This document shows, piece after piece, positions 39,925 through 59,106 of a DNA stretch of 64,000 nucleotides. How positions within the stretch are numbered: the stretch's first letter is position 1; each line of letters opens with the position of its first letter. Source of the stretch: Peribacillus simplex NBRC 15720 = DSM 1321. Lineage in GTDB: Bacteria > Bacillota > Bacilli > Bacillales > DSM-1321. The DNA lies in contig NZ_CP017704.1 of NCBI RefSeq assembly GCF_002243645.1, forward strand, positions 2,622,001 through 2,686,000, in the 5' to 3' direction. A program made the translations under genes and the position numbers. The notes beneath the pieces are model-generated. The model saw only the letters and a list, made by a program, of their open reading frames with translations, was not told the DNA's origin and searched no databases.

Positions 39925-41445
39925 TTAGCGTATTTTTTTCAATGGTTCGACAGCAGGGCCATTTAAAACTTCACCAACGATAGAGTAGCGGGAGCCGTGG
40001 CATGGACAGTCCCAGGTACGGTCGCCGCTATTCCAGGCAACTTCGCATCCCATGTGAGTACATGTGGAGTCGACAATATGAAGCTGGCCATCATGATCAC
40101 GGTAACACCCAGCTTTGTCTCCATTCACCTTCACGATTGCTCCTTCATCATTTCCTAAGTCTTCCGGCGTTTTATGAATGACGGCCAATTTACCTTTGAT
40201 CAGATGCTTCGCCACATCAGCATTATCTTGGACCATATTTTTCACGCCTTTTAGACGGGCAGGGTCATATAATTCCGCATACCGGTTATCTCTTTGTAAA
40301 ATCCGGTCAGTTAAGATCTTGGCGGCAATCGATCCATTCGTCATTCCCCATTTAGCATAGCCGGTAGCTATCAGGACGTTTTGATGGTTGGCTGTCACTG
40401 GACCGACGAAGGGGATATTATCCGGTGTCACGATATCCTGTGCCGACCAGCGATAGGGGATGTCCTTCACATCGAAATACTGGGAACTGAAGTCCTTCAG
40501 TGCTTCATAATGCTCGATCATCGAGATTCCCTGGCCTGTTTTATGGCCATCTCCGCCAACAAGTATAAGTTTTTCCCCATTGTCCAATTCCGTATAGCGA
40601 AGGGAGCGGGTAGGGCTGTCTGCACTGTAAAACATCCCGCCTGGATATTCCTGTTCAGTCTTGATACCAAGCACATAGGACCTATTTACATGAACACGGG
40701 CAAAGTATAAGCCCGTTTCATCGTTAAAGGGGAAGTGGGAGGCAACGATTACCTGATTGCTTTTGATTGAATGTCCAGTATCCGTCAGAACGGTCGGCGG
40801 ATCGCCGTCTTCAATCTTCATTGCTGTTGTCCGTTCATAAATGGTGCCTCCACTTTCGAGAATTGTCGAAATGAGAGCAGTTAAGTATTTTAACGGGTGA
40901 AACTGTGCTTGATCTTTCATTATCACAGCAGCTTTACAAGGAATGGAGAAAGGGATATTCTCTGCATAATCCCCCCGAATGCCGAGTTTTTGATAGGCTT
41001 TCAGTTCATTTTGAATTTTGCTTTTATATTCATCCGTATTTGCGTAGACATAGGCATCCTGTGCAGTCAAATTACATTCAATGGAATGTTCTTCTACCAA
41101 GTCTTTGATTAGCTTCATGCCCTCTGCATTGGCTTCATAATAAAGTTTGGCCTTCTCTTTACCATGGTCAGTGATCAACTGGTCATAAATCAAGCCATGC
41201 TGGGCCGTGATTTTTGCTGTAGTGTGTCCTGTCGTTCCAGTAAGGATTTCGCCTGCTTCAATCAGTGTGACTTTAACACCTTGTTTAGCTAGTAGATAAG
41301 CAGATGTGATTCCAGTAATTCCGCCGCCTACTATTAAGACATCAGTGGTTATATCTGTATCTAGTTTAGAAAAAGAAGGGAAAGTTAACGCACTGCGCCA
41401 ATAGGGTTCCGGAAATCGGGGAAGGTCTGTATTTTTTTCAGTCAT
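39925..41445 (-). CDS. FAD-dependent oxidoreductase with C-terminal Rieske [2Fe-2S] domain (YhfW-like)
   Basis: 506 aa from ATG 41445 behind GGAGG; an upstream in-frame ATG at 41484 is less likely. The N-terminal DAO-type FAD domain has VLIVGGGITGITSAYLLAKQG and a GTTGHTTAKITAQHG motif. The C-terminal Rieske domain has CTHMGC and CPCHGSRYS ligands. Similar to B. subtilis YhfW; substrate unknown. The 5' third and upstream region are tandemly duplicated to the right (see copy 2), so this is the intact copy. Confidence 0.9.
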   Translation of the reverse strand: MTEKNTDLPRFPEPYWRSALTFPSFSKLDTDITTDVLIVGGGITGITSAYLLAKQGVKVTLIEAGEILTGTTGHTTAKITAQHGLIYDQLITDHGKEKAKLYYEANAEGMKLIKDLVEEHSIECNLTAQDAYVYANTDEYKSKIQNELKAYQKLGIRGDYAENIPFSIPCKAAVIMKDQAQFHPLKYLTALISTILESGGTIYERTTAMKIEDGDPPTVLTDTGHSIKSNQVIVASHFPFNDETGLYFARVHVNRSYVLGIKTEQEYPGGMFYSADSPTRSLRYTELDNGEKLILVGGDGHKTGQGISMIEHYEALKDFSSQYFDVKDIPYRWSAQDIVTPDNIPFVGPVTANHQNVLIATGYAKWGMTNGSIAAKILTDRILQRDNRYAELYDPARLKGVKNMVQDNADVAKHLIKGKLAVIHKTPEDLGNDEGAIVKVNGDKAGCYRDHDGQLHIVDSTCTHMGCEVAWNSGDRTWDCPCHGSRYSIVGEVLNGPAVEPLKKIR

Positions 41446-41731
41446 TTGAATACCTCCATACAGTTCAGTTAGTGAATCGTCCATTTATTACCATACCCAA
41501 ATCCGCTATTTATACGCTAATTTTTGTAAGAAGAAATATTAAAAAAATACATTATTTGGTTTGTTTACAAATACGTATACATGTAAACAAAAATAGATAT
41601 ATTGTACACAAATAAGTATACATGTTTACAATCACGTACACATGGCTATATATAAGGTGTATACACATTTGTTCCTATTGTAAACAATTCGACAAATATA
41701 GCTACAACTAATGAAGGATTGACTAACGTGG
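40850..41731. repeat. Tandem duplication, copy 1 (intact yhfW-like 5' part plus intergenic region)
   Basis: From inside the oxidoreductase gene, through its promoter region and the first 20-bp repeat array, to the parM -35 TTGACT (41719-41724). The same order of sequence recurs about 864-891 bp to the right. Copy 1 loses homology right after the -35 spacer, so it has no parM -10. Confidence 0.85.
41563..41643. repeat. Four tandem 20/21-bp repeats, parC-like array 1 (diverged)
   Basis: Units at 41563-41582, 41583-41603, 41604-41623 and 41624-41643, approximating GTTTACAAATACGTATACAT. Each contains ACGTATACAT or a close variant. They are more diverged from each other than in array 2, as expected for a relic or secondary centromere. 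Confidence 0.8.
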
Positions 41732-41737
41732 AAACTT

Positions 41738-42297
41738 TTTCAGCTTCCAGAATCGTGGAGAGGAGGGCCGTTAAATATTTTAAAGGGGTGAAATTGTGCT
41801 TGGATCATGGAAGATTTACAAGGAAAGGAGAAAGGGATTTCTTCTGCATAATCCCCGCGAATGGCTAGTTTCGATAGGCTTTTAGTTCTTTTGGAATTTT
41901 ACTTTTATATTCATCCGTATTTGCGTAGACATAAGCATCCTGTGCAGTCAAATTACATTCAATGGAATGTTCTTCTACCAAGTCTTTGACAAGCTCATTC
42001 CTTCTGCATTGGCTACATAATATAGTTTGGCCTTCTCTTCACCATGTTTTAGTGAACAAACAAATCGTAAATCAGGCCATGCTGTGGTGTGTCCCATTGT
42101 TCCGTTAAGGATTTCGCCAGCCTCTATCAGTGTAACTTTAATACCTTGTTTAGCTGAGTAATCCCTGTAATTCCGCCGCCTACAATTAAGACGTCAGTGG
42201 TTATATCTGTATCTAGTTTAGAAAATGAAGGGGAATTTAACGAACTGCGACAATAGGGTTTCCGAATTTGGGAAGTTTCTGTATTTTTCTCAGTCAT
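41738..42297 (-). pseudogene. Decayed 5' fragment of the YhfW-like oxidoreductase gene
   Basis: Minus-strand remnant beginning MTEKNTETSQIRKPYCRSS and keeping FSKLDTDITTDVLIVGGGIT, then broken by several frameshifts and deletions. It matches the first roughly 190 codons of the intact gene at 41445. A 76-codon open frame (42127-42357) is merely the surviving N-terminus. Confidence 0.88.
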
Positions 42298-42415
42298 TTG
42301 AATACCTCTATACAGTTCATTAGTGAATCGACCATTTATTACCATAACCAAATTCACTAATTATAAGCTTATTTTTGTAGGGGGAAAGATCAATTAAAAA
42401 TACAATATATGGTTT

Positions 42416-42496
42416 GTGTACAAACACGTATACGTGTAAACAAAAAAAGATGCATTGTGCACAATTACGTATACATGTGTACAAACACGTATACGT
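42416..42496. repeat. Four tandem 20/21-bp repeats, parC-like centromere array 2
   Basis: Units at 42416-42435, 42436-42456, 42457-42476 and 42477-42496. Units 1 and 4 are identical, GTGTACAAACACGTATACGT; units 1 and 4 contain the perfect palindrome ACGTATACGT, and unit 3 differs slightly. Four tandem 20-bp repeats upstream of parMR is the architecture described for the pSK41 centromere, where ParR binds. The array lies 87 bp upstream of the parM -35. Confidence 0.8.
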
Positions 42497-42582
42497 AGCT
42501 ATATATAAGGTGTATACATATTTGTTCCTATTGTAAACAATTTGAAAACAATTCGACAAATATAGCTATTACTAATGAAGCA

Positions 42583-42611
42583 TTGACTATCGTGGGAACT
42601 TTTTCTATCCT
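42583..42611 (+). promoter_or_regulatory. Promoter of parM-parR-like operon
   Basis: TTGACT (42583-42588), exactly 17-bp spacer, TATCCT (42606-42611), 52 bp before the start codon. The corresponding -35 in copy 1 has lost its -10. Confidence 0.7.
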
Positions 42612-42663
42612 TAAAGGGAATGCTTCACTAATTTTTTTTCTATAAAAAAGGGGATGTTTTTAG

Positions 42664-43857
42664 ATGAGTTCTAGAATCGCAGCAGTAGACGTAGGAAATG
42701 ATGCTATCAAAGCTATTTTTGGAAAGCTAGAGTCTGAACTATATATACCAAATGTCATTGCAAAAGACATAGAGGACCGTCCGGTCATTGGGATTGAGGA
42801 ACTTAATGAAAAAAACCCATTGGAAGGGATTCATATTAGGGTCCATTCACCGGCTCTGCAAGACAATAATGCGATTTATCGCGTTGGGAACTTGGCGACA
42901 AAAAGTGATAATCCTACAGAACTGGATTTAGGAAGCAGTAAATCGGAAGAAGATCAAACATTAGTCATGCTTTTTGCGGCTCTTGCATTAGACGCTGCCA
43001 AGTTGGGGGACAACGATACATTCAAAAAAGTGAATAACGTTGTGGAAGCCAACTATACGCTTGGAACAGGGTTGCCACTTCGGGAGGTTAAAGAAGGGAA
43101 AGACGTCGGTTACCGCTCGAAATTACTTGGTTCAGTCCACCAGGTGGAATTTTTAATTACTCCTAAATACCAAGGCATGAAGGTTAATATCAAATTCGAT
43201 GAAGTGAAAGTCTATCCAGAGGGCTTCGCTGCATACATAAATTTGGTCATGGATAAAGATTTGAATATCATTAACCGTGAATTAATAGATAGAAGAATAC
43301 TCATTCAGGATATCGGTGGATTATCGACGGATATCGCTGTCATTAAAAATCGTAAAGTTGACGATGACAAAGCGCAAGGATTCAACTTAGGAGTAGCTGA
43401 GGCCCTTGAATCGATTCGTGAAGAAATCAGGAAGAAACATGGTGTCGAGCTGGATAGCAGGCGCGACGTCGTTGAAATCATCACGAAGAAAAATGATCGC
43501 AATCATATTATGGTTCGCGGAAGCAGGACAAGCGTCCATGATATCGTCGACCGCATTTTAGGTGAACTGGCCAAAAAGCAATATCGTCACCTGCGCAACG
43601 TATGGCAAAAAAATTCCCAAACGGAAATCTGCTATTTTGTAGGCGGGGGATCGATTGTCCTGAAAGATTACTTGAAAACATTGAATCAAAATTTTGATGG
43701 CTACAATATAGACTTTTTCGAAGATGAACGGGAAAGCGTTTGGATGATGGCAAACGCCTATTATAAATTGATTTCGGATTATAATCGCCGGAATTCAAAG
43801 GAACAGAATCAGTCCCAGCAAAAGAAGAAAGAACAAAGAACGGGTTCTATTAAATAG
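42664..43857 (+). CDS. ParM/StbA-family actin-like segregation ATPase
   Basis: A 397-aa actin-fold protein. Phosphate-1 loop AAVDVGNDAIKAIFG with Asp9, phosphate-2 IQDIGGLSTDIAVI with Asp216, and the adenosine motif FVGGGSIVL (325-333) are in the right order and spacing for ParM/Alp proteins rather than MreB or DnaK. It should polymerise with ATP or GTP and push centromere-bound DNA apart. The charged C-terminal tail (QSQQKKKEQ) is unusual. AAGGGG precedes the ATG. First gene of an operon with the DNA-binding partner 8 bp downstream. Confidence 0.88.
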   Translation: MSSRIAAVDVGNDAIKAIFGKLESELYIPNVIAKDIEDRPVIGIEELNEKNPLEGIHIRVHSPALQDNNAIYRVGNLATKSDNPTELDLGSSKSEEDQTLVMLFAALALDAAKLGDNDTFKKVNNVVEANYTLGTGLPLREVKEGKDVGYRSKLLGSVHQVEFLITPKYQGMKVNIKFDEVKVYPEGFAAYINLVMDKDLNIINRELIDRRILIQDIGGLSTDIAVIKNRKVDDDKAQGFNLGVAEALESIREEIRKKHGVELDSRRDVVEIITKKNDRNHIMVRGSRTSVHDIVDRILGELAKKQYRHLRNVWQKNSQTEICYFVGGGSIVLKDYLKTLNQNFDGYNIDFFEDERESVWMMANAYYKLISDYNRRNSKEQNQSQQKKKEQRTGSIK

Positions 43858-43865
43858 GTGAGAGA

Positions 43866-44405
43866 ATGAAAAAAACAGCTTCTTCTGAAATTAAAAGAGG
43901 ACAAGCCATCACTTTTCGTATCCCTTCAGATGTATCAGATTATACGTTAAGACAGCTGCAGAAATTGAAGGAAACGGAAAGAAGGAATTTTTCCAGTAAA
44001 ATTGCCGAGTATGTTCTCGATGGAGTCGGGCAATCCACCCATCAGGATCGGGAAATGATTGCCCTGCCCATGCCGAACAAGCTAAGCAAATCTCAGCGTG
44101 ATTGGCTCAAGCATTCCCACTCAGAAGCTATGCTTGGAACGATTATGTACAACCTTTTATCCGATCCTTTACGCGCTACCGCCTTGCTTGCCTCTTTGAA
44201 CAGTAATGGATCGAATGAGGAATATATGCAGGTTGAGCTTGAAGAAAAGGAAGTGGAGGAGGTCAAGGAAGACTTACCTAAGAAAGATCTGGATGACTTT
44301 GATTGGAATTTGGATGAACCCTCACAACAAGAGGAAGAAACCGAACCGGAAGAGGAAAATCTTGACGATCTCCTGGGTGATTTTCTTGATCAAATGAACC
44401 AGTAA
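43866..44405 (+). CDS. ParR-like ribbon-helix-helix adaptor with acidic tail
   Basis: A 179-aa protein. Residues about 14-55 (ITFRIPSDVSDYTLRQLQ, FSSKIAEYVLDGV) look like a ribbon-helix-helix DNA-binding domain. A linker helix region follows, and the last 60 residues are strongly acidic (EEKEVEEVKED, EEETEPEEENLDDLLGDFL). ParR proteins have this layout, using the C-terminus to contact ParM. No sequence-level family match is certain; position directly after the ParM-like gene and downstream of the iterated repeats supports the role. GTGAGAG precedes the ATG. Confidence 0.75.
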   Translation: MKKTASSEIKRGQAITFRIPSDVSDYTLRQLQKLKETERRNFSSKIAEYVLDGVGQSTHQDREMIALPMPNKLSKSQRDWLKHSHSEAMLGTIMYNLLSDPLRATALLASLNSNGSNEEYMQVELEEKEVEEVKEDLPKKDLDDFDWNLDEPSQQEEETEPEEENLDDLLGDFLDQMNQ

Positions 44406-44413
44406 ATATGTAC

Positions 44414-44452
44414 GAGGATATCTGACGACAAGTTGGATATCCTCCTTTTTCT
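44414..44452 (+). terminator. Terminator of parM-parR-like operon
   Basis: Perfect 9-bp stem GAGGATATC/GATATCCTC followed by CTTTTTC. Confidence 0.88.
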
Positions 44453-44512
44453 TTTGCGGGGGCTATAAGAATGATACATACCCCGTTAAATTAGACATAA
44501 AAAAGAAGCTGC

Positions 44513-44551
44513 AGCCTTTTCCCAGTAAACAAACGGGGAAAGGCTTTTTCT
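44513..44551 (+). terminator. Second hairpin terminator in the 44.4-44.9 kb gap
   Basis: AGCCTTTTCCC/GGGGAAAGGCT stem (one mismatch) plus TTTTCTTTT. The remaining gap to 44922 shows no recognised gene; it would carry the promoter of the beta-helix gene. Confidence 0.75.
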
Positions 44552-44922
44552 TTTGAATGACAGATGTCCCCCTCGTAATCGCCGGACACATTCCTTATAA
44601 AGCACTCATCAGCCGGCCATTCACTTTTCAATAGCCACGCAAGAAGGTTTGTTTTCCCCAATCACAATCCGATTTACCCCTTTATTCCATATTCGATTGA
44701 AGGTTTTTTTGATGGAAAAATTGTCGAATTAGCCGTGCGTTTAAGCAACTGTTTCAAGATTAACACATGTTATTTTGATTTTGAGAAATGCACATCTCAC
44801 ATCCCATGTAACATTAGATATGCACCCCTCCTTTCTAGGTCGACTATGGTGTCCTTGTGATCGGCCACTGGAATATGTAAAACAACTGTCGAAAAATGAA
44901 TAAAAGACATGGGAGTTTTCAG

Positions 44923-57504: not shown

Positions 57505-59106
57505 ATGACAGAATTCATCGACCTTGGCGTCAGCCCGGCGATTAACATGATATTAAAGCAAATAGGAATATCCGCCCCTACCCCAATTCAGGAGAAATCG
57601 ATACCAGATATCCTTGCTGGAAGGGATGTCATCGCGAAGGCGCAGACGGGAACGGGGAAGACTTTGGCATTTTTGCTGCCAATCCTTGAAAAAGTCGATC
57701 CCGCCGCATCCCACATACAATCACTGATCGTCACGCCAACTAGAGAATTGGCTTTGCAAATCACTGCTGAATTGAAAAAATTCGCTAATGAAATCGAAGG
57801 ACTTCAAGTGCTTGCAGTTTATGGAGGACAGGATGTCGAGCAGCAAATGAAAAAGCTGACAAGAAACATTTCCGTGGTGGTCGCCACGCCAGGCAGGTTA
57901 TTAGATCATTTACGAAGAGGCACCATCGATCTATCACAAACTCAAACACTCGTGCTTGATGAAGCTGATCAAATGCTTCATATTGGATTTTTACCAGAAG
58001 TGGAAGAGATCATGGGACAGCTTCCAGAGGAGCGCCAAACGTTGCTCTTTTCAGCGACGATGCCTGAACAGGTGCATCAATTGGCTAAACGTTACATGAC
58101 TAAACCATTAACTGCCGCTGTGAAGGCTGAGCAAGTAACAGTCGAGAAAATCAGGCAGCTTGTCATCGAGACGACCGATCGTGCCAAACAGTCTTCACTA
58201 ATTAACATGATCAAAGAAGAACAGCCATACCTTGCGATTATATTTTGCCGTACAAAACGTCGCGTTTCGGTTTTGAATGATGCCCTGAAGGCAGCTGGAT
58301 TCAATTCTGAAGAACTTCACGGTGACCTTTCACAGGCAAAGCGGGAGCGTGTCATGAAAAACTTCAGAGACGCAAAGCTTCAATATTTAGTGGCAACGGA
58401 CGTGGCAGCACGAGGGCTCGATGTAGAAGGCGTGACCCATGTGTTTAATTATGATGTCCCCGAGGATGCAGAAAGTTACATCCACCGAATTGGCCGGACG
58501 GGCCGAGCGGGTGAGAATGGCTTGGCTGTAACCTTTATAGCAACGAAGGATCTTCAGCTTTTAAGCGATATTGAAAAAGGGATCTCCATGAAAATCGAAA
58601 GAAGGACGATTGAAGGAGTGAAAATGTTCCAACCTGATGAGGTGAGGCAAAAAAGGAAGCGTTATGAAGACTCTTCTGATGAGGGTACCCGCCGACCGCG
58701 TTCGGGAGGGGGAAGGAAACATCGGGAACGGATAGATACGAGAGGACCGAATCGAGGCAGTCACCGTTCTGTAAATCAAGCTGACAATCGTGAAGTCGAG
58801 AGGGAGAAACCACGGGGAGGCCGGATGGAAAACAGCCGCGGACCCAAACGTGAGGATTCACGGGGAAGCCGTTCGGAAAACGGTCGTGGACCTATACGTG
58901 AGGATTCACGGGGAGGCCGTTCGGAAAACGGCCGCGGACCAAGGCGAGAGAATCCGCGGGGTGGCAGCTCGGAAGATAGCCGTGGACCAAAGCGTGATAA
59001 TCCACGAGGAGATCAAAGAGATAGCCGTAGATCTACTAGTACACAAGGTCCAAGTAATCGCAGGGGTGGATCTGGCAGTAGCCCCAATAGAGGGAGAAAC
59101 CGGTAA
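57505..59106 (+). CDS. DEAD-box RNA helicase with repetitive Arg/Gly-rich tail
   Basis: A 533-aa ATP-dependent RNA helicase. Q motif [10 protein letters not shown], motif I AQTGTGKT (46-53), Ia PTRELA (78-83), DEAD (152-155), SAT (183-185), and [13 protein letters not shown] and [10 protein letters not shown] in the second RecA domain. After about residue 370 the protein is a disordered basic tail with four consecutive 16-residue repeats (438-501). Likely acts in ribosome assembly or mRNA turnover at low temperature, as CshA-type proteins do. The ribosome binding site is weak. Confidence 0.92.
58816..59007 (+). repeat. Four 48-bp in-frame tandem repeats in the helicase tail
   Basis: Encodes four units of the type [16 protein letters not shown] (residues 438-453, 454-469, 470-485, 486-501). 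Nucleotide identity between middle units is high, so copy number may vary between strains by slippage. Confidence 0.85.

Follow-up and report, generated by a model that had tools for sequence, protein, structure and literature searches.

The 64-kb window analysed here (G000:C1:2622001-2686000, the whole stretch of 64,000 nucleotides from Peribacillus simplex NBRC 15720 = DSM 1321) carries, in its 42,416-44,405 region, a ParM/array locus whose elements stand in the order of parMRC plasmid-type partition cassettes: array, promoter-like element, parM, parR and a terminator-like hairpin (Table 1). The original prediction for this DNA described a type II segregation cassette, and its parts are indeed present, with both open reading frames (ORFs) where they had been placed and both proteins homologous to plasmid partition proteins. 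The window is chromosomal, because the single 5,645,783-base (5.65-Mb) contig to which it belongs also carries dnaA, at 2,570,278; the earlier concern that the contig might prove to be a large plasmid can therefore be set aside. parM, present in one copy in this genome, starts at 2,664,664, at a distance of 94 kb from dnaA, so the earlier statement that no replication gene lies nearby holds for close neighbours at most. The nearest named relative of the locus is that of Peribacillus frigoritolerans (L031). Over the 80 loci compared, parM, parR and the array form the sole conserved unit.

Table 1 Features of the ParM/array locus, in window positions
Feature	Position	Strand	Remarks
Second box array (candidate parC2)	41563..41685		9 GTATAC-type boxes, in tandem-duplication relic
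First box array (candidate parC)	42416..42538		8 boxes, including the earlier-noted 42416-42496 repeats and more boxes past the spacer
Spacer between box blocks	42495..42510		TTGATATATAAGG-like; read by eye
Sigma-A-like promoter TTGACT-17-TATCCT	42583..42611	+
parM, 397-aa actin-like ATPase, Alp7A/ParM type	42664..43857	+	Pfam and PHROG matches
parR, 179-aa adaptor	43866..44405	+	Predicted helices; profile homology to plasmid ParRs
Intrinsic-terminator-like hairpin, 3' of parR	44414..44444	+

ParM matches the Pfam families Alp7A_like_C (E value 2.4e-36), ALP_N (9.6e-11) and MreB-like_C above their cut-offs, as well as PHROG 691, 'partition protein' (5.2e-44). Its assignment as a ParM-family actin with intact nucleotide motifs is borne out by these matches and by residues, which we take to be the actin nucleotide motifs, that are invariant in 43 aligned sequences. 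For the R1-type families it scores below the curated cut-offs (ParM_N, 23.8 versus 27.4 bits; NF010498, 30 versus 417 bits), and StbA_N (PF06406) finds nothing in this genome, a result that is uninformative since the model is silent in all 14 control genomes too. A single-sequence search of solved structures gave no match, and a ParM profile aligned weakly, and over part of its length, with Cbc-ParM and CBg-ParM (E 0.006-0.007). Ratios of non-synonymous to synonymous substitution (dN/dS) of 0.021-0.038 in five Peribacillus pairs, two further pairs being saturated, point to strong purifying selection on parM. Pairwise ParM and ParR distances correlate with r = 0.88, a value reached in 0 of 2000 permutations.

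The ParR ORF begins 5-19 nt after parM in 79 of the 80 loci, the exception being L062, in which the parM frame is broken; it is present there too and so in all 80. It likewise follows parM in every locus of a second set, comprising 50 loci from 43 genus codes, four of which (L114, L152, L156 and L160) repeat loci of the first set. Open frames of about 600 aa in some genomes were considered as ParM-ParR fusions and ruled out: in the eight loci read, of ten retrieved, they consist of parM, a TAG stop and parR in one frame. In L114-L117, L119, L120, L122 and L123, parM ends with TAG followed by GGTGAT, and parR takes up the same frame 9 nt on, an arrangement that suggests tight translational coupling.

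Searches of ParR found no useful Pfam, NCBIfam or PHROG family and, among solved chains, nothing at E ≤ 0.1, with chance-like matches only; DUF5329, touched by 5 of 43 members with a best E value of 0.014, was taken as chance. A profile of the chromosomal ParRs matches seven plasmid ParRs (of ten fetched) over 103 columns with a probability of 99.8% and an E value of 5.8e-28. In the alignment the N-terminal part and the middle are conserved, as is a C-terminal peptide, and the acidic linker before this peptide is variable. AlphaFold2 predicts helices at residues 25-37 and 42-60 (ribbon-helix-helix-like), 75-82, 84-99 and 101-112, and a C-terminal one at 166-178; the acidic linker is of low confidence and a strand is not called in the monomer model. 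This predicted helix order matches, at low confidence, the ParR topology of one strand, five helices and a ParM-binding tail given in the accessible part of PMC5016525.

Upstream of parM, the four tandem repeats of 20/21 bp described earlier, with identical first and fourth units, are confirmed by Tandem Repeats Finder (42415-42494, period 20, 4.0 copies, 65% matches): 42415-42434 and 42476-42495 are identical 20-mer units, and unit 2 is degenerate. The repeats are made up of short palindromic boxes of GTATAC type (GTNTAC/GTANAC), and counted by these boxes the array is longer than had been described; the second array farther upstream had been missed. The 500 bp upstream of parM hold 8 boxes, where 2000 mononucleotide shuffles average 0.83 and never exceed 5, and the first array holds its 8 boxes in 125 bp, where 100 order-1 Markov windows of 64 kb reach no more than 4 per 125 bp. 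There are 79 boxes in the whole window, and no 125-bp stretch of it outside the two arrays contains more than two.

The same clustering recurs among the relatives. Box statistics for 79 loci (the 80 minus L062) give a density of 50-75 per kb at -275 to -126 from parM, against 0.99 per kb in the remaining locus sequence, with 4-18 exact boxes per chromosomal locus in the 500 bp upstream. The most frequent distances between neighbouring boxes are 12, 8, 13, 21 and 20 bp, and the unit is therefore 20-21 bp long, consisting of two 8-bp boxes and a short spacer. An upstream cluster of at least three boxes is found at 79 of 80 loci, the exception being L105, where none of GTATAC type are clustered; in the second set, 49 of 50 loci have at least five boxes of one type. 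In seven related loci, identity to the first array of the window is 0.87 for boxes, 0.82 for linkers, 0.75 for the upstream flank and 0.86 for the downstream flank. A box model, R1, finds a match no farther than about 1.1 kb upstream of parM in each of 16 genomes, and among the 150 first-look candidates scored in each, clustered matches occur solely at the parMR locus. In G023 the match lies in the second array alone, and in G251 it reaches no more than 12.1 bits, below a 12.5-bit site elsewhere. In the genome of the window the top locus match scores 25.9 bits, in the second array, and single matches in the first array 13.2-20.7 bits; single sites elsewhere reach 15.3 bits in this genome and at best 18.5 bits in others (G026, G028).

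Two further features of the arrays were noted. The spacer breaks the first array at a fixed place, and a similar TTGATATATAAGG-like sequence was seen by eye in many of 18 relatives; this semi-conserved stretch is perhaps a DNA-bending or protein site. At L123 (G051:C1:3264000-3267300), boxes also lie downstream of parR, so that arrays stand on both sides of the operon.

Ribbon-helix-helix proteins contact bases through their strand. The putative contact strand of ParR, residues 13-17 (QAITF in the window), was compared with the boxes counted over 340 bp upstream in chromosomes and 160 bp in plasmids. Strands starting QA, QP or QS occur at 78 of 79 chromosomal loci, where group means are 9.2-13.8 for TAC-type boxes and 0.2-2.6 for those of TGC type; TAC boxes outnumber TGC boxes at every one of these 78, nine of which have 3-5 TGC beside 6-10 TAC boxes. 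At L105, from Fictibacillus, a KTIAF strand goes with 9 TGC and 4 TAC boxes. Plasmids with KT strands (n = 7) have 3-6 TGC and 0-1 TAC boxes, plasmids with other strands (n = 2) have 4-5 boxes of TAC type but lack the TGC type, and the plasmid locus L130 (KTFSI) has neither type. The sole KT strand of the second set (L145) is accompanied by 7 TGC and 7 TAC boxes; the QTIAF loci L143 and L146 have 7 and 4 TGC boxes, L155 and L118, with other strands, 5 and 4, and the remaining 45 loci two or fewer. None of these five named loci repeats one of the first set. A strict rule that a K-T strand means TGC boxes was considered and is imperfect, as L143, L146, L155, L118, the nine first-set loci and L130 show. 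The co-variation of strand and box is indirect support for ParR binding to these sites and falls short of proof.

The second array belongs to a tandem duplication (41115-41741 and 41995-42605, 81% identical) that took in the start of the neighbouring gene, presumably an oxidoreductase, together with the box array and part of the promoter. Fragments of a decayed second copy of this presumed oxidoreductase gene lie in about 41742-42318 on the minus strand. Between the two arrays of the window no parM fragment was found; L035 and L037 retain a decayed one (about residues 1-105), some 0.7-1.05 kb upstream of parM, left by duplication. The second array is present in seven of the nine closest loci (L031-L033 and L035-L038, with L034 and L039 lacking it), in the Cytobacillus-type loci L058, L059, L061 and L064 at 1.25-1.5 kb upstream, and in L091 of Metabacillus bambusae at 1.2-1.3 kb upstream, the last five without a parM fragment. 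Judged from these remains, the second array has outlived the parM copy behind it. Its identity in seven related loci to that of the window is 0.94 for boxes, 0.82 for linkers, 0.94 for the upstream flank and 0.67 for the downstream flank; the case for selection on its boxes is weakened because the upstream flank is equally conserved and because the boxes compared were selected for an exact match in the window sequence.

Within the family, 41 of 43 genomes have a ParM match, and within the order 222 of 397 do (E ≤ 0.001). Counted by eye, 201 of these 222 matches are strong (E < 1e-197) and 21 weak (the best 9.2e-20), and 67 of 135 genus codes have any match. Chromosomal parM presence mostly follows genus. 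Nineteen genus codes are represented by six or more sampled genomes; among these, likewise tallied by eye, presence is full in g1 (13/13), g14 (14/14), g24 (14/14), g42 (12/12), g49 (11/11), g10 (10/10), g65 (9/9) and g63 (8/8), and partial in g31 (14/15), g26 (10/11), g79 (7/8), g39 (6/8) and g32 (1/7); no ParM was found in the sampled genomes of g46 (n = 10), g47 (10), g18 (9), g90 (8), g16 (7) and g60 (6). Class-wide, 65 of 299 match, and full-length identities fall at 77-100% or at 45% or less, with nothing between; the families f49 and f73, outside the order, have ParM at 78-79%. A plasmid collection yielded 54 records with relatives, at up to 44% identity, and a phage collection three weak matches. 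In a tree of 34 ParMs, the 24 chromosomal and 10 plasmid rows are split by one branch with support 100/99; the tree came with a warning of long branches.

The cassette keeps its place relative to the origin while its local neighbours are not conserved. dnaA was located by PF00308 in 55 genomes (13 + 42). In all 32 with an exact distance, parM lies 36-259 kb left of dnaA (median 85 kb) and is oriented away from it; 18 more fit, with dnaA close to where the contig begins and a minus-strand parM towards its other end, at a distance that is only approximate. Five stand outside the count: G302, G318, G344 and G351, with no place for parM among the matches listed, and G184, in which parM and dnaA lie on separate contigs. 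The next commonest neighbour family after parM and parR occurs at 24 of 80 loci. As a control, a gene 4 kb from parM, which we take to be purU-like, was found in 12 of 22 genomes; it lies within 260 kb of dnaA in two of them (G093 and G213), and in the other 10 its best match is 0.6-1.6 Mb from dnaA, some of these matches being possibly paralogues.

We read the locus as a domesticated type II (parMRC) partition system, inherited in the Bacillales chromosome, whose arrays form a centromere on the left flank of the origin, and we consider this reasonably probable. ParR multimers would bind the box arrays through the ribbon strand, and the arrays, 94 kb left of dnaA, would act as centromere, possibly also serving autoregulation of the operon. 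The C-terminal peptides of ParR, exposed on the array, would capture ParM filaments, and filament growth could then exert a force on the chromosome, pushing apart or anchoring the newly replicated left origin flanks alongside Soj/Spo0J. Since the cargo would be the chromosome immediately left of oriC, an effect on origin position or separation is likely. Each of 28 genomes examined for ParB-family proteins has two of them, and ParMRC would therefore be a second system beside ParABS. The full proposal, of an actin-driven device that segregates or anchors the origin of the main chromosome from its own centromere at one locus, beside ParABS, in much of Bacillales and with other lineages doing without it, is more tentative, and we regard it as a real possibility that falls somewhat short of probable. 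Among the three roles originally proposed, moving or anchoring the chromosome fits best; we know of no earlier ParMRC whose normal cargo is the chromosome, and this one would be the first.

Several points weigh against this reading. The evidence for it is computational. Roughly half the genomes sampled from the order have no strong ParM match, so that the system is dispensable there, and small genera offer mixed examples (g3 2/3, g13 1/2, g23 1/3, g34 1/2, g41 1/2, g55 3/4, g115 2/3 and g129 1/2). Shared ancestry inflates the origin-position statistic, and the purU-like control is one gene. With ParB-family proteins present as well, a second system is not obviously needed. The search for boxes across whole genomes covered 150 first-look candidates in each, and the stray 18.5-bit single sites score within the span of individual first-array matches in the genome of the window. 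The ParR model is of low confidence, with a mean predicted local distance difference test (pLDDT) of 65 and a predicted template modelling score (pTM) of 0.27. The sequence of the promoter proposed earlier is in place, but the stretch 41480-44700 has no more promoter-like matches than its shuffles do (11 versus 10.9); TTGA is present somewhere at -110 to -40 in 71 of 79 loci, a count without a chance control.

Plasmid relatives, moreover, have few boxes, placed around the promoter, and the boxes could therefore be mainly operators. In its strongest form, which we consider fairly unlikely, this alternative makes the boxes an autoregulatory operator only and gives the ParM filament a cytoskeletal or scaffold role instead of DNA movement. 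It draws on the ten plasmid relatives, whose boxes, where found, are few and around the parM promoter, and on a ParM far more conserved than ParR (mean identity 84% versus 60%). The chromosomal loci argue otherwise, with their 4-18 boxes lying mostly before the promoter-like element. So, more weakly in view of the flank identity and the choice of boxes, does the second array of the window, which keeps its boxes with no detectable parM behind it, as do the second arrays without a parM fragment in the four Cytobacillus-type loci and in Metabacillus bambusae.

A sporulation device, one that captures the left flank of the origin at the pole ahead of asymmetric division, is quite unlikely in our estimate. 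The accessible part of PMC4949633 reports that in Bacillus subtilis the prespore-trapped segment is centred slightly left of oriC and that RacA sites lie mainly left of oriC; here parM lies to the left of dnaA in each of the 32 genomes with an exact distance. Because B. subtilis prespore DNA is so centred, we treat a sporulation role as a serious sub-reading. The promoter-like element is of sigma-A type, which speaks against it, although the scan is not above chance. Spo0A, present in 391 of 397 genomes, cannot discriminate for that reason. A match to NF009646 (PRK13182.1-1), a family of RacA type, lies below cut-off at G000:C1:4569213-4569713 in the genome of the window and also tells against the idea; such matches, all below cut-off, occur in 243 of the 397 genomes, including this one, and the idea that the cassette replaces RacA was set aside.

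Stabilisation of a plasmid or other replicon in trans, the remaining role in the original prediction, is very unlikely. Relatives on 54 plasmid records give it some ground, but the genome is one contig (a plasmid could be missing from the assembly), chromosomal parM presence mostly follows genus, and four plasmids, two from Peribacillus and one each from Cytobacillus and Niallia, have their own parMR with TGC boxes, as against the chromosomal TAC boxes; the proposal fits poorly because such plasmids, the two of Peribacillus among them, already carry a parMR with different boxes. That the locus is a functionless remnant of a plasmid or mobile element that once integrated is hardly credible: its plasmid-type origin is clear from homology and a tandem-duplication relic adjoins it, but the low parM dN/dS points to purifying selection, ParM keeps an identity of at least 77% from one order of the class to another, full-length matches between 77% and 45% being absent, and array and ParR are conserved together.

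Elsewhere in the window, 48-bp tandem repeats in about four copies (58804-59011) lie within the ORF 57505-59106, which is probably an RNA-helicase-like gene as in L031.

If the chromosomal centromere reading is right, actin filaments may help to position or separate chromosomes in many relatives of Bacillus. The cassette is widespread, tied to the origin and apparently under strong purifying selection, which brings the question within reach of direct tests in cultured spore-formers, among them the laboratory strain Alkalihalophilus pseudofirmus OF4 (L085), which carries the locus; a lineage that lacks the cassette is a possible clean host for reconstitution, and the pairs of ParR strand and box offer a natural data set on the specificity of ribbon-helix-helix proteins for DNA.

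Among known systems, the closest relatives are on plasmids (a P. frigoritolerans CK6 plasmid, B. methanolicus pBM69 and P. polymyxa pPPKN03045), with the same gene order as here, a ParM 42-44% identical over 93-94% of its length, a homologous ParR and boxes before parM. They differ in a ParR of 131-151 aa in the ten examined, against 179 aa here, in having about 3-6 boxes near the promoter where found, TGC-type in 7 of 10, and in their separate branch of the tree. Alp7A (PF22128), which we take to be a protein of plasmid pLS20, shares the C-terminal domain matched by this ParM and belongs to a plasmid system. ParABS (Soj-Spo0J-parS) is, like this locus, chromosomal, origin-proximal and left of dnaA; its motor type is unrelated to ParM. 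In the ParMRC of the Staphylococcus aureus plasmid pSK41, a ribbon-helix-helix adaptor acts on an uninterrupted series of 20-bp repeats that precedes the operon (PMC9426499 and PMC5016525, in the parts accessible). The upstream repeat array is shared with our locus; pSK41 differs in being a plasmid system, and our ParR has no sequence match to solved chains at E ≤ 0.1.

Chromosome-encoded ParMs (cParMs) were described in 2025 from Desulfitobacterium (Dh-cParM1), Clostridium botulinum (Cb-cParM) and Bacillus tropicus (Bt-cParM1/2), of which Dh-cParM1 and Cb-cParM polymerise in vitro and Bt-cParM is said to be conserved on several Bacillus chromosomes (PMC12270681, accessible in part). The ParM described here is, by the same definition, a cParM, being encoded on the chromosome and conserved between species. 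The two groups are alike in having parMR on the chromosome, conserved within a genus, with Bt-cParM compared by description only. According to the accessible portion of that report, a conserved cparC was not identified among Clostridium strains, and its main text has oriC in a reference title only and does not describe origin proximity; here many genera share both the array and its place near the origin. Among the open-licence papers listed for ParM or ParR we recognised no description of an origin-linked ParMRC. Chromosomal ParMs, including those of Bacillus, are thus known, and what appears to be new is an origin-linked ParMRC with a conserved array.

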